Shown here: in pieces, positions 52,410-57,013 of the stretch
Numbering within the stretch: the first letter of the stretch is position 1
How the letters are laid out: each line of letters opens with the position of its first letter
Origin: Candidatus Nitronauta litoralis
GTDB taxonomy: Bacteria > Nitrospinota > Nitrospinia > Nitrospinales > Nitrospinaceae
Length of the DNA: 64,000 nt
Assembly (NCBI GenBank): GCA_015698285.1
Contig: CP048685.1
Location: 3,100,001 to 3,164,000, forward strand
Direction of reading: 5' to 3'
The notes under the pieces: model-generated
Database searches by the model: none
The model's input: only the letters and a program-made list of their open reading frames with translations
What the model was told of the DNA's origin: nothing
Translations under genes and position numbers: made by a program

Positions 52410-53120
52410 TTAAATAAAATACATAGCGGAAAAGCCCATACAAACAGATACTGTATGAATCCGACCGAATTGGTTCTGCTTATTTATTGCTGGTAGAAAG
52501 TCAAATAGAGCCAGATAAAGGAAAGTACCTCCCGAGGCTGCAATAGCCAATTCAAGCAGGTAGGGGTCCACTATTCCAAACATTACATAGGAAACACCTG
52601 CTCCCAAAGGTGTGATTAAGGCAAACAGAAAAATAATAAAAAGGATGGTTCTTTTTTTGAATATCCCGGCTTTAATAAACAGGCTGCTCAATATCAAAGC
52701 AACCGGGAATTTGTGAATGATGAGGGCAGCTATAACAACGATCCCGATTTCCATCTTCATGGCGGTACCCATGGCCAACCCTTCCACCAGACTGTGAAAA
52801 GATAACCCGCCTAGCGTTGATAATCCAATGGTCTGGTAGGAAATCTTTCCCGACTCCAGTGTGTTCCAGGCAAAAGTTTTTTCAAAGAAAAAAGTAATTA
52901 AAAACCCCAAGGCCAATGGGTATATCATTTCTATTCCTAAAACTGGATTCACCCTTGGGATGATATGAAATAGAACAGCCCCTAATAAACTCCCCAGACA
53001 AAAACTGATAAGGAAAAGGAATTTTCCTGGGCTCCAAAATCGAATTGTGGGAATGTATCCGCCCAGCATTGTAATGAAGAATGTGAAACCCAGGAAAGAA
53101 TAGGGTGCAGTTGTATCCAT
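52410..53120 (-). CDS. ZIP-family metal transporter
   Basis: 236 residues with about eight membrane helices. The two metal-binding helices are seen: FHSLVEGLAMG and IIHKFPVALIL, in place of the usual HNFPDG and HEIP forms. ZIP proteins bring Zn2+, Fe2+ or Mn2+ into the cytoplasm. It lies next to a short CDF transporter and a ZnuD-like receptor, which favours zinc. Start ATG at 53120. Confidence 0.85.
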   Translation of the reverse strand: MDTTAPYSFLGFTFFITMLGGYIPTIRFWSPGKFLFLISFCLGSLLGAVLFHIIPRVNPVLGIEMIYPLALGFLITFFFEKTFAWNTLESGKISYQTIGLSTLGGLSFHSLVEGLAMGTAMKMEIGIVVIAALIIHKFPVALILSSLFIKAGIFKKRTILFIIFLFALITPLGAGVSYVMFGIVDPYLLELAIAASGGTFLYLALFDFLPAINKQNQFGRIHTVSVCMGFSAMYFI

Positions 53121-53346
53121 TTATTTGGTCTTGATTCCTTTCAATATCTAAAGAGCCCCGGATATCCGAAAAATAGATTTGAAGTCAAGCGATGAATTCC
53201 AGGGCCGGAAGGATTATCTCCTTGGAGGAGGATAATTTGTCATTCCCATGTCTTTCCGGCCCCGGAAAATTGAAATAGTCGGTGGTTATTAATTCTGGAG
53301 GTAGAAACTATAATTGTGAGTAATTTCAGGATCCTTTTTAATTTGA

Positions 53347-53440
53347 GTTGCAAAATACCATGGCAAGGTTGTAAATGCAAATGAATTGCAAATAAATTGC
53401 GAATAATTTGCGTAAAATTTTGCAAGTATTTTGCAAATAA
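53347..53440. promoter_or_regulatory. Cluster of TTGCAAAT-type repeats upstream of the CDF gene
   Basis: Five or six copies of a TTGCAAAT-like word lie within 95 bases, in both orientations (GAATTGCAAATAAATTGC, GCGAATAATTTGC, TTTTGCAAGTATTTTGCAAA). It is about 115 bases before the CDF start and about 230 before the ZIP start. The same word occurs twice at 56879-56898 before the TonB receptor operon. A metalloregulator such as a Fur-family (Zur-like) protein is a candidate binder; no such gene is in the window. Confidence 0.5.
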
Positions 53441-53554
53441 TATAGAATTTTCTAAAAAATTTGTAGTTTACAGATCAGCTACTTTAAATAGATTTTTTGA
53501 ATGATTTAAAACAACCAATCAAAAAGCAAAATAATAGTTAATCAGGAGTAGCTA

Positions 53555-54193
53555 GTGAGCAGCTGTTCTTCAAATTGCGGTGAGGACTTGAATGATATCT
53601 TAAAAAATCACCGAAAGATTCTTTGGGTGGTCTTATGGGTAAACCTCGGGATGTTTTTTGTGGAGATTGCTTTTGGTTGGGTAGGTAAATCGCATGCGCT
53701 ATGGGCGGATTCGCTGGATATGCTTGGCGATGCTCTGGTCTTTGGGGCATCGATCCTGGTCTTGAAAGCAGGGGAGAAATGGAAAGCTCGTGCCGCTCTT
53801 GGAAAAGGAATTCTTATGGGAGTTTTATCTATTGGACTATTCCTCTCCGCAATTTTTCGATTTTTAGAGCCTTTAAAACCTGACCCGGAAATTATAGGAG
53901 GAGTGGGTGCGCTGGCCTTGGTGGCAAATATAATTTGTGCTTTTTGTCTGTTTCAGTATAGAAATCAGGATCTGAACATGCGATCCACGTGGCTGTGCGC
54001 CAGGAACGATATTTTAGCTAATCTGGGGGTTATTATCGCAGCCTGGGGAATCTACATGTTTCATTCGCCCTGGCCAGATATCGTTGTCGCCATCCTCATT
54101 TGTCTTTTTGTCCTGAACTCTTCAATCTCGATAATAAAAGAAGCACAAAAAGAACTATCTGAATTCAAGACTTTTTTAAAAAAGACTGCCTGA
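53555..54193 (+). CDS. Short cation diffusion facilitator (CDF) transporter
   Basis: 212 residues from GTG 53555, with AGGAG six to ten bases upstream. It has the CDF membrane core (about six helices) but no C-terminal cytoplasmic domain. The metal motifs are HALWADSLDMLGDA (HxxxD pattern) and CARNDILANLGVI (NDxxxN). The N-terminus starts with CSSNCG, a possible metal-docking site. CDF proteins export Zn2+ or similar ions. Its promoter region holds the TTGCAAAT cluster. Confidence 0.88.
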   Translation: MSSCSSNCGEDLNDILKNHRKILWVVLWVNLGMFFVEIAFGWVGKSHALWADSLDMLGDALVFGASILVLKAGEKWKARAALGKGILMGVLSIGLFLSAIFRFLEPLKPDPEIIGGVGALALVANIICAFCLFQYRNQDLNMRSTWLCARNDILANLGVIIAAWGIYMFHSPWPDIVVAILICLFVLNSSISIIKEAQKELSEFKTFLKKTA

Positions 54194-54296
54194 TTATCCT
54201 GGTTTTTGGCGAGGAAATATCAGACTGAAGTTATTTCGAAGAACCCCGGTGATTAATTTTGACCCGACACAACACTTTCAAAAGATAAATAAAAAA

Positions 54297-54346
54297 ACCT
54301 GGAAAGGTCACTCACATTTTTTTAATGTGATGTGTCCCTCCCAGGC
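54297..54346. terminator. Convergent terminator between the CDF and TonB receptor genes
   Basis: A long imperfect stem (CCTGG...CACATT-TTTTT-AATGTG...CCAGG) is flanked by A7 on the left and TTGGTTTTT on the right. It can stop transcripts from both sides. Confidence 0.6.
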
Positions 54347-54361
54347 ATTGGTTTTTAACCA

Positions 54362-56416
54362 TTAAAAATTGACGCGTACTCCCAGTTCTGCCCCGATGCC
54401 AGCTTCAGGCGCAAAGTTTCTAAGAAACGAAGTTGAGTTCCGTATATTCTGGTCCAGAAGATTGTTTCCCTTCGCAAACAGCAGAACATCCGTTCCGTGA
54501 AAATCAAGAAGATGGTAATGCGTCGCCAGGTTCAGCAGAACATAAGAGGGCGTATTTGCCTCATTGGCCCCTGGATTGTTCTGGGCTTCCCCTCGTGTCA
54601 GCCTGAGGTTGGAGCTCCATTGCCCCTTGGAATGGTCCACCTGGAACCCCCATCGCAGCGGTGGTTGCTGTGGGACATCACCCATGTTGGTCAAGCGTCC
54701 GCGGGTAAAGTCACTGAACAGGGTAAAGTCTACTGCCCCGTGATTATTGTCCATTACTGGAAATATCAAATTGGCTTCATATCCCAGGAAGTAAGCCTGG
54801 GTCTGTTGGGCTAAAACCTCCGGAGCATCGTCGACGACAGCGCCTGTCCGACCCAGAAAAATGTAATCGTCAACAAGGTTGTAGAAAAGATCAACCTCCG
54901 CAATGACCCAGTCGGCATCGAATCTGTATCCAAAATCAAAGTTGTTAGAGGTTTCTTCGGTCAGGTTTGGATTACCTCTCTCAAAAGCGCGGGTAGCTTC
55001 GTGAAATCCTGAAAAGAATAGCTCCTGAACCTGCGGTGCTCTTTGGGAGCGGGTGAAAGCGCCTCTAAAATGGTGCTGGTCGTTGGGGCTCCACGTTGCA
55101 GAAGCGGAGGCACTGACCGGGGTAAAGCTGCGATACATCATTCCAGCAAAGTCTGGATCCAAGGAAGTGTGTTCCACCCTTACCCCTGCCTTCACATTGA
55201 CTGGGCCAACATCAACAGATTCCTGACCGAAAATACCAATACTGTTTGTCCGGGTAGGAGGTGTTATAAATATGCTGTCCTCAACTGCGAGAGCGGAAAA
55301 CTTACTTGAAATGGCCTGTACCCCGAGCACTCCTGTAAAACCGGCCAAAGGTTTATGAGGAATTTCCAGACGGCCTTCATACGTATCGTTTTGAAAGAAA
55401 GCTTCCGTTTCGTTCATGGCCGTTTCCCGATGTTCGTAATCGGTGTAACTCATGCTTGTTTTGATTGCTTCGAGGAAGCTGACCGGATTGTACAATTCCC
55501 CCTTGAAGTCGATCTTGTTTTGTTCCAGTTTAACTTGAACCCGTTCACCGTCGTCAGTTCCTTCCGGCGGTATGCCATAGGCATTGTCGAGGAAGTTGCC
55601 AGAAACACCGAAAAACCCTGAATCTCCCACCAGAGAGAATCCGGCAGTTCCGCCTCTGGTCTCGGAAGCACTGTTGTCGATAAAACCGTTTGTATTCCGG
55701 GTCACCATTAAATCAGGCTCACTAACCTGGCCGCGTGCCTGATCTATAGCTAAACCTCCAACATCGACGTTCGCGTTGTTACGATAAAAACCGTCGAGAT
55801 GATAGGCAAAATAGTCTTTTCCGCCCTCTAATTTGATGGCTGTAGAGGTTTCATTGGATACGGAATTAAACTTTTGTTCAAAAGCGCCTGTGACCAGTTT
55901 TTCTGGAACCAATCGGGGAATCCTGTTGTCGATCACATTGACCACACCACCAATTGCGCCACTACCATATAAAAGTGTGGCCGGACCACGTAAAATCTCT
56001 ATCCGGTCTGCCGTTAATGGATTTACTGAAGAGGCGTGATCAGGGCTTACCTGGGATGCATCGTTTGCCCCCAGCCCGTTGTTCAACACCCGTACACGCG
56101 GCCCACTTTGTCCGCGGATTACCGGTAAACCGACACCTGGCCCAAAGGATTGGCTGTGGACACCCGGTTGCAGTTTCAGAGTTTCACCGATAGTGGAAGC
56201 GGCTTTCAACCTTAACTCCTCATCATGCAAAACTTCTACGGGTCTTGCAGAGCTGGATATGGTTTCTTCCATTGGAGTGGAAACAACGACTTCCTTAAGG
56301 TGGATTTCAAAATGCTTTTTAGGGCTTTCAGTTATTTGGTGTTTTTCTTCGGCCCAGACGTGAGAAGTTAAAAGAGCCATACTTAAGCAAACTATTAATG
56401 TAATGTAAGGTCGCAT
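54362..56416 (-). CDS. ZnuD-like TonB-dependent receptor
   Basis: 684 residues from ATG 56416 (MRPYITLI); the frame is open to 56488 but those residues precede the signal peptide (ending HVWA). TonB box EVVVSTP, a plug domain and a 22-strand barrel follow. Plug segments VRVLNNGLGANDASQVSPDHA, SVNPLTADRIEILRGPATLL and NVIDNRIP match ZnuD-type zinc receptors as I recall them. The C-terminus ends in F (GVRVNF). The neighbouring ZIP and CDF genes support zinc as the substrate. Confidence 0.88.
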   Translation of the reverse strand: MRPYITLIVCLSMALLTSHVWAEEKHQITESPKKHFEIHLKEVVVSTPMEETISSSARPVEVLHDEELRLKAASTIGETLKLQPGVHSQSFGPGVGLPVIRGQSGPRVRVLNNGLGANDASQVSPDHASSVNPLTADRIEILRGPATLLYGSGAIGGVVNVIDNRIPRLVPEKLVTGAFEQKFNSVSNETSTAIKLEGGKDYFAYHLDGFYRNNANVDVGGLAIDQARGQVSEPDLMVTRNTNGFIDNSASETRGGTAGFSLVGDSGFFGVSGNFLDNAYGIPPEGTDDGERVQVKLEQNKIDFKGELYNPVSFLEAIKTSMSYTDYEHRETAMNETEAFFQNDTYEGRLEIPHKPLAGFTGVLGVQAISSKFSALAVEDSIFITPPTRTNSIGIFGQESVDVGPVNVKAGVRVEHTSLDPDFAGMMYRSFTPVSASASATWSPNDQHHFRGAFTRSQRAPQVQELFFSGFHEATRAFERGNPNLTEETSNNFDFGYRFDADWVIAEVDLFYNLVDDYIFLGRTGAVVDDAPEVLAQQTQAYFLGYEANLIFPVMDNNHGAVDFTLFSDFTRGRLTNMGDVPQQPPLRWGFQVDHSKGQWSSNLRLTRGEAQNNPGANEANTPSYVLLNLATHYHLLDFHGTDVLLFAKGNNLLDQNIRNSTSFLRNFAPEAGIGAELGVRVNF

Positions 56417-56534
56417 AATCCATTCCGTTGAAGGAGTTTCGGCGTAAAAATAGAAACTCGTATTGGACTCCAGGCGGAAATGCCCCAAAGGAATCCGATA
56501 ATGTTAATTAGTTTTCAGGAGTTAGAACTAGAGT

Positions 56535-56843
56535 TCAACGGAAGGAGGGAGGACTTCTACTATTGAAGGTCTTTAGGAATCTCGCCGGGATCGTTCCCAG
56601 AGCAGGGAGTTGCCAGACAATGATTCGAAAATCTACTGAAGTGTCCGGAGTCTGAACTTCCAGGCTGACATTGGATTGGGTCCAGTTACAGGGAGCACAA
56701 TCCGATTCCGCATGGAACGGGTCCCAGTCGTGATCGTGCAGAATAGGGGAGAAAAGGGTCATCACCCCAAAGCACAAAGCGATGCAAAGCGCCCAGGCTT
56801 GACCGGAACCGGTCGGTAATCTGAATTGGGACTGCGTTTTCAA
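56535..56843 (-). CDS. Small exported or membrane protein with His/Asp/Cys motif
   Basis: 102 residues. One hydrophobic segment (WALCIALCFGVMTLFSPIL, about 17-35) is followed by HDHDWDPFHAESDCAPC, a likely metal-binding patch. The layout recalls DUF2946-type proteins that accompany metal-related TonB receptors. It precedes the ZnuD-like gene by 118 bases on the same strand. Its promoter region has the TTGCAAAT pair. Confidence 0.7.
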   Translation of the reverse strand: MKTQSQFRLPTGSGQAWALCIALCFGVMTLFSPILHDHDWDPFHAESDCAPCNWTQSNVSLEVQTPDTSVDFRIIVWQLPALGTIPARFLKTFNSRSPPSFR

Positions 56844-56878
56844 GGACCACTCCGCTTGATCTTATCTGCATCTTTTAG

Positions 56879-56898
56879 TTGCAAATCAGTTGCAAATG
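56879..56898. promoter_or_regulatory. TTGCAAAT direct repeat before the receptor operon
   Basis: TTGCAAAT occurs twice, 11 bases apart, 36 bases upstream of the small His/Cys gene. It is the same word as the 53347-53440 cluster, so both promoters may share one regulator. Confidence 0.45.
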
Positions 56899-56988
56899 CG
56901 GATAGAGAATTCCATAAATACGCAATTCTGTCAAGCTTTTTGGATTTTGGTGGGGTTTAGAGTAGGATTTGGGAGAGGGAGCGGGGTA

Positions 56989-57013
56989 CCCCTTCCCTGT
57001 TTAAGGGAAGGGG
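56989..57013. repeat. Perfect 10-base-pair hairpin
   Basis: CCCCTTCCCT-GTTTA-AGGGAAGGGG. No T-run follows on the plus strand. It is probably an intergenic palindromic repeat rather than a terminator. A second GGGGTACCCC palindrome overlaps its left end. Confidence 0.5.

Follow-up and report, generated by a model that had tools for sequence, protein, structure and literature searches.

A paired TTGCAA box as the putative operator of a Zur-like, Fur-family repressor in Candidatus Nitronauta litoralis and other bacteria

The window analysed here is a stretch of 64,000 nucleotides of Candidatus Nitronauta litoralis (positions 3,100,001 to 3,164,000 of contig CP048685.1; G000:C1:3100001-3164000), which forms part of one 3.92-Mb contig. 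It holds a locus with genes for a ZIP-family metal transporter, a short CDF-family protein, a ZnuD-like TonB-dependent receptor and a small His/Cys-rich protein, accompanied by Fur-type palindromes of the form TTGCAA-N5-TTGCAA. These palindromes are very probably the operators of a Zur-like repressor, for which the Fur-family protein L008 is the best candidate. An earlier, sequence-only reading of the window had suggested the box of an unlisted zinc regulator, a suggestion supported by the paired box in metal-gene promoters and by the presence of a Fur-family candidate in a box-headed island of the same genome. Computation shows the boxes, their confinement to promoters of metal genes, the zinc-related gene content, the regulator gene in the island and a conserved regulator-box pair in other phyla; from this we infer a zinc signal, direct binding, repression and, in the window, the choice of an L008- or L007-type protein. 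Zinc-bound dimers would sit on the 17-bp box and, in the window, block ZIP, CDF and the receptor operon with its small His/Cys gene, as well as a COG0523-hisI2-pyrC2-folE2-ZIP-ZnuD island elsewhere. With falling zinc the repressor would leave, and the uptake systems, the zinc-sparing enzymes and the regulator itself would be made.

Most boxes of the window lie in the gap of the divergent ZIP and CDF genes. Closest to the ZIP gene is a lone TTGCAA half-site (53348..53353, plus strand). It is followed by two boxes with one mismatch each to TTGCAA-N5-TTGCAA (53375..53391 and 53386..53402, the second overlapping the first at 11-bp spacing), a degenerate box TTGCGAATAATTTGCGT (53397..53413) and an exact box TTGCAAGTATTTTGCAA (53420..53436), the starts 53375, 53386, 53397 and 53420 thus following each other in steps of 11, 11 and 23. 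As the cluster 53375-53436 sits between the two divergent genes, it can serve both. The exact box at 53420 overlaps a sigma70-like pattern (53420-53448) that points to the CDF gene; near this gap there are four such patterns against a shuffle mean of 1.8, which is weak evidence. A second exact box, TTGCAAATCAGTTGCAA (56879..56895), stands 36 bp ahead of the start codon of the small His/Cys gene, and a search for promoter-like patterns at 56780-57000 found none.

The positions at which the sequence-only reading had placed its words, before the CDF gene (53347-53440) and before the receptor operon (56879-56898), were borne out. Its remark that they were noticed nowhere else in the window fails for the single word TTGCAAAT, of which there are seven exact copies, three of them away from both promoters (18662, 36041 and 62563). 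At up to one mismatch the window holds 105 such words compared with a shuffle mean of 119, which is the level of chance. As a motif, the single 8-mer is unspecific; the paired form TTGCAA-N5-TTGCAA is what stands above chance, with five exact sites in the 3.92-Mb genome and none for the reversed control. A weight matrix built from seven sites, all outside the window, places the five boxes of the window at the top (24.4 to 15.3), and the best non-box place scores 9.0, save one shifted overlap at 13.8.

The paired box is not common between the genes of this genome. A refined palindrome, WTGCRARNNNYTYGCAW, has eight exact matches, and all eight fall inside four metal-gene promoters: three at the head of the island, two at the island's COG0523 operon, one in the ZIP/CDF gap of the window and two before a TonB receptor elsewhere. 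At up to one mismatch there are 53 matches compared with 19 for the reversed control. A looser search for pairs with up to two mismatches (277 against 182 in the control) was too noisy for reading. Scanning the genome and its relatives for the motif before other zinc genes, as the sequence-only reading had proposed, led to the COG0523-WD40-hisI2-pyrC2-folE2 island and to other phyla. Similar-looking degenerate remnants of insertion sequences adjoin two of the box-controlled loci (L009:3640-4100 and L010:9430-9800), a hint of movement together with mobile elements.

The island lies at about 2.574-2.600 Mb of the genome (L009, L034) and is divided by its boxes into two arms. The left arm comprises a TonB receptor, a PepSY_TM protein, a NifU-like protein and the Fur-family gene L008; this receptor is of the siderophore type (TIGR01783, 217 bits, just under the cut-off of 223.5). 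The right arm comprises DUF7676, DUF418, a second box pair, unknown genes, a COG0523 gene (cobW) and two WD40 proteins, and continues with MerC, HisI (hisI2), a PyrC-type dihydroorotase (pyrC2) and FolE2 (folE2), with the dihydroorotase and FolE2 scoring above their NCBIfam cut-offs. Then come paralogues of the ZIP (48% identity to that of the window), small His/Cys (two copies), ZnuD receptor and short CDF (49% identity) genes. These are followed by a DUF3299-like gene (named by eye), a ZrgA-like protein (107 bits, cut-off 185), an ATPase of the ATP-binding cassette (ABC) type and a permease. ZrgA and FolE2 are markers of zinc limitation. Since no box of their own was found for the island ZnuD (L143), ZIP, CDF and small His/Cys genes, these are taken to belong to the long island. 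In the literature, COG0523 with WD40 and paralogues of PyrC and HisI mark predicted Zur regulons (PMC2770081).

The strongest support for zinc comes from the genes that neighbour the regulator and its box in other phyla. In a scan of named genomes, for which the best 80 of 244 relatives were analysed (three of the 80 loci being Nitrospinota), the regulator subfamily is also present in Bacteriovoracaceae, Verrucomicrobia, Uabimicrobium and others, where a box often directly precedes it and zinc genes lie nearby. The 80 loci contain 25 copies of the core TGCRARNNNYTYGCA compared with 0.7 expected from shuffles in 200-bp blocks, which preserve the base content of each block and not its dinucleotides; four of these copies are held by the three Nitrospinota loci and two by the Nitrospina-like locus L184. 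An upstream test used the 64 loci in which an open reading frame (ORF) for the regulator had been caught, the remaining 16 being dropped. Here, the 20,160 bp upstream of the regulator contain 15 copies of TGCAA-N5-TTGCA, as many as the 1,007,206 bp elsewhere, and an upstream box at up to one mismatch is present in 18 of the 64 loci, the reversed word in none. Genomes G058 and G017 count as box-less in this test, as their box precedes the upstream nifU-like gene. The neighbours, taken from 28 of the 80 loci that were chosen mostly for having boxes, include ZrgA/DUF3299/ABC/permease operons in Bacteriovoracaceae, type-B L31 with L28 and S14 (L208), type-B L31 with COG0523 (L217), COG0523 (L191), ZnuA/AztC-type proteins (L223, L251), a ZupT-like ZIP protein (L244) and a ZnuD-like receptor (L192). 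Zur control of ribosomal protein paralogues is known (PMC3788343).

The genome encodes three FUR proteins, one of which is a classical Fur (L006, 140 bits); the other two, L008 in the island and L007 elsewhere, are paralogues with 59% identity to each other. The gene for L008 (2574212-2574649 of the genome; L009:4213-4650) is the last of a box-headed operon and lies about 580 kb from the boxes of the window. The candidate belongs to the Fur superfamily by its FUR domain (PF01475, 75.7 bits, cut-off 23.1), and both L008 and L007 fall under every NCBIfam equivalog cut-off listed, those of Fur and PerR included; the Zur equivalog PRK11639 gives 25.3 bits against a cut-off of 167. Across an alignment of 46 members, HHH95-97, C103 and C139 never vary, and at least 90% of the sequences retain C100, C112, H131 and C142. 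In this alignment C100/C103/C139/C142 match the structural Cys2+Cys2 zinc site of the Fur superfamily, and the extra Cys112 and His residues would be compatible with a zinc-type sensing site. The predicted structure of the G017 orthologue (predicted local distance difference test 89.7) has Foldseek matches to structures of Fur, PerR, Mur and Zur without distinction, and the sequence profile gives 74.6 bits for PerR, 65.8 for MtZur, 60.4 for ScZur, 52.2 for chain 3eyy, which we take to be the Nur of Streptomyces coelicolor, and 27.7 for EcZur. Because of the score under the cut-off and of a profile and fold that match PerR, Fur and Zur alike, the protein is called Zur-like in role and placed outside the curated Zur family.

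Homologues with at least 50% identity exist in six of the 77 genomes that made up the phylum set: two each in G000 (the genome of the window) and G017, further ones in G058, G033 and G010, and a fragment in G009. The G009 gene (L093:18198-18479) is apparently truncated at its N-terminus, with an ORF of 93 amino acids (aa) that is 70% identical over 87 aa (72% in the homologue search), and boxes are still nearby. In G058, G017 and G033 the order of a divergent regulator-nifU pair, strong boxes and an unknown gene (u12152) is kept, with COG0523 (CobW) after u12152 in G017 and G033. Strong boxes (score above 20) among the 30 CDF and 16 ZnuD loci of the phylum occur only in G000, G033 and G009, all with a close regulator. 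Summed over rows, exact refined boxes number 70 in the 77 genomes compared with 25 for the reversed control; 20 of them lie in the six genomes with a regulator and 50, or about 0.7 per genome, in the remaining 71. By position, 14 of the 20 boxes in regulator genomes stand at regulator, zinc or TonB promoters (G000 8/8, G017 2/2, G058 2/3, G033 2/5, G009 0/2; G010 has none at all).

A few loci stand apart from this set. In G046 a variant box (15.1, twice) lies beside a different Fur gene; it is of the TGCAACA-N3-GTTGCA type and precedes a ZnuD-like receptor (L141:1243-1293). Similar TTGCAACA pairs were seen in intergenic stretches of G007 and G008 (L036:1501 and L037:1501), and the variant boxes of these three genomes possibly belong to a sister regulator with a shifted code. 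Genome G017 has a second zinc-type locus (L095:9240-14666) with a distant Fur-family gene (35% identity to L007), COG0523, a HisI-like gene and the boxes TTGCAACTAAATTGCAA and ATGCAATTTAATTGCAA. Locus L184 (PAAH01000007.1) is filed under a Thaumarchaeota metagenome-assembled genome and carries a Nitrospina-like zinc island with a regulator of 70% identity and the same gene order, probably a binning error.

Several observations weigh against a zinc regulator acting through this box. No box at up to one mismatch was found in the tested stretch of 46 of the 64 regulator loci, the regulator is by sequence and fold no nearer to known Zur proteins than to PerR or Fur, and in the same-genus genomes G010 and G011 the receptor gene lacks a box, though G010 carries an L007-type regulator. 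The boxed siderophore-type receptor of the island, which is followed by PepSY_TM, makes iron, or a zincophore, possible; the boxed L010 receptor was scored by Pfam only. The geometry of the box also equals that of the published nickel box, with a Nur consensus of tTGCaa-N5-ttGCAA in Streptomyces coelicolor (PMC3919588). It could accordingly belong to a nickel-sensing or an iron- or manganese-sensing Fur relative (Nur, Fur or Mur type), with the locus moving those metals. We hold this to be improbable in view of the neighbouring markers of zinc limitation, namely COG0523 with WD40, HisI and PyrC (PMC2770081) together with FolE2, ZrgA and ZnuD, and in view of the type-B L31, L28, S14 and ZnuA/AztC genes of other phyla (PMC3788343). 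Unlike in the case of Nur, the content of the boxed genes is of a zinc type; no genes for nickel transport or superoxide dismutase were recognised among the boxed operons read. The box may resemble the rhizobial Mur operator as well.

With a zinc-responsive repressor as the preferred reading, there are three Fur-family genes from which to choose, and since paralogues can share boxes, the protein reading those of the window might be the classical Fur L006 or L007 instead of L008. The L007-type gene of G017 also has upstream boxes. On the other hand, genomes with other Fur-family genes and no L008 type lack strong CDF or ZnuD boxes, save for the G046 variant beside its own Fur; L007 of G000 has no upstream box, and G010, with its L007-like gene, has none in its zinc locus. 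A reader other than L008 is unlikely, though somewhat less so than a different metal. It is hardly conceivable that the words arose by chance as AT-rich repeats or are general parts of promoters. Single 8-mers do behave like chance at up to one mismatch, and exact pairs turn up occasionally in relatives that lack the regulator, mostly inside genes; those of G036 and G038, located within a coding gene, were put down to chance, and the others that were looked at are mostly inside ORFs. The number and placement of pairs in the genome, the outside-trained matrix and the conservation across phyla with its reversed control all speak against chance.

The system shares several traits with the Zur proteins of E. 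coli, M. tuberculosis and S. coelicolor, such as the Fur superfamily membership, the structural Cys pairs, and putative operators before zinc-uptake genes, COG0523 and zinc-free and ribosomal protein paralogues. Gene content and the position of the boxes would also agree with control of zinc-uptake and zinc-sparing genes. By contrast, the box differs from the Zur motif TRWNAYRWTATAWYRTNWCA quoted in PMC6103462; the available part of PMC3251581 gives no box sequence. COG0523 subfamily 5 with WD40 is likewise partly predicted to be Zur-regulated and clusters with WD40 and znuABC. The survey that describes it, as far as available, puts Zur sites mainly in Firmicutes, alpha/beta/gamma-proteobacteria and cyanobacteria, leaving out the present phylum and box, and names none in Nitrospinota, Bacteriovoracaceae or Verrucomicrobia (PMC2770081). 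Searches of the open literature, outside which most subscription papers lie, gave no report on zinc regulation in Nitrospinota, on a fusion of ZnuB with CDF or on a Zur-type regulator with a TTGCAA-N5-TTGCAA box. An operator code with a candidate zinc regulator would make zinc regulons searchable in the nitrite-oxidising Nitrospinota, in Bacteriovoracaceae, in Verrucomicrobia and in others.

The short CDF protein of the window had been labelled an exporter in the sequence-only reading, which is doubtful. In 18 of the 30 phylum loci with a short CDF gene, it is linked to ZnuB behind ZnuC, with six fusions and 12 adjoining genes (ZnuB and ZnuC were named by eye and by mutual similarity, not by family model). 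The fusions form ORFs of 481-482 aa in one piece (L102, L103, L105, L106, L107 and L114 of G063, G066, G065, G058, G059 and G064), and in one locus of G017 (L099) the CDF is fused to MerC instead. Of the 30 loci, 29 preserve the site motif W-x-C-x-R-N-D, and the remaining one is a locus in which no ORF was caught. The protein of the window passes the CDF superfamily model (100.8 bits, cut-off 82.35) and misses the named exporter equivalogs ZitB (49.1 bits, cut-off 408) and FieF (25.1 bits, cut-off 447). Because the short CDF is fused to or adjoins the zinc importer permease ZnuB, it is regarded as import-linked and probably serves zinc import or delivery, not efflux.

This subfamily assignment also bears on how the CDF promoter would be controlled. 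In S. coelicolor, Zur activates a CDF exporter via upstream oligomers (PMC5472717), and Pseudomonas Zur acts in both import and export (PMC9827704). Activation by upstream Zur oligomers is a rival explanation for the CDF gene of the window, and the extended Zur contacts upstream of zitB are indeed a likeness (PMC5472717). Unlike at zitB, however, the box at 53420 overlaps a promoter-like pattern, which favours repression over activation as weak evidence, and the CDF subfamily is tied to ZnuB import genes. Taken together, these two features make repression the simpler reading.

Between the boxes and the ZIP start lies R1, a putative structured RNA of the leader (53192..53272, minus strand) with a 13-bp stem and the invariant loop CCTCCTCCA-GG-GAT. 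Further copies are found between the island boxes and the island TonB gene (L009:9172-9246, minus strand) and beside boxes in G017 (L089:16698-16774, minus strand), where the next gene starts about 560 bp further on. All 13 pairs of the stem are kept in the three sequences, with two double and four one-sided compensations, and the four one-sided changes produce G-U pairs only if the strand leading away from the boxes is read. With just three sequences, the shuffle control for covariation is a weak one (52 of 500). Folded singly, two of the three sequences have z values of -3.0 and -2.1, with CCUCCUCC partly paired in these folds. A loose hairpin pattern returned mostly unrelated matches in the 77 genomes and was replaced by a covariance model, which was built from these three sequences and matches only those three places in the 77 genomes; the R1 of the window, one of the sequences behind the model, scores 94.9 bits in this search. 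In other phyla, 31 of the 80 loci were searched without a further copy, the sole match (L183) being G017 itself. A search of the window and of L009, L010, L034 and L011 with Rfam 15 gave tRNAs only, with no riboswitch and no R1 match at gathering score. Two plus-strand terminator-like stems (53217-53231 and 53103-53118) lie in or beside the ZIP/CDF gap, one of them within the R1 hairpin.

Any function of R1 is a guess. It is conceivable, if rather doubtful, that the zinc regulon includes this RNA, which would serve ZIP and receptor mRNAs as their leader and, in G017, act as a small RNA of zinc shortage. R1 would be transcribed away from the boxes once the repressor leaves, and its CCUCCUCC, complementary to AGGAGG ribosome-binding sites, would silence zinc-using or other mRNAs if it acts as a small RNA. 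There is a known case of a small RNA, dependent on Nur, whose pairing reaches up to a ribosome-binding site (PMC3919588). If true, R1 would be for zinc what the iron-sparing small RNAs are for iron. It points to a testable RNA element of the zinc response.

The composition of the locus that had been proposed from sequence holds up in the ORF, Pfam and NCBIfam results. The ORF of the small His/Cys-rich protein (56535..56843, minus strand), to which Pfam gave no match, is the first gene of the receptor operon, with the ZnuD-like receptor (54362..56418, minus strand) reaching 372.7 bits in the NCBIfam ZnuD model, under its cut-off of 950. The ZIP-family transporter is encoded by an ORF of 236 aa on the minus strand (52410..53120; Pfam Zip, 74.2 bits), and the CDF-family protein (53555..54193, plus strand; Pfam Cation_efflux, 91.6 bits) has 212 aa and the site motifs DSLDMLGD and WLCARND.

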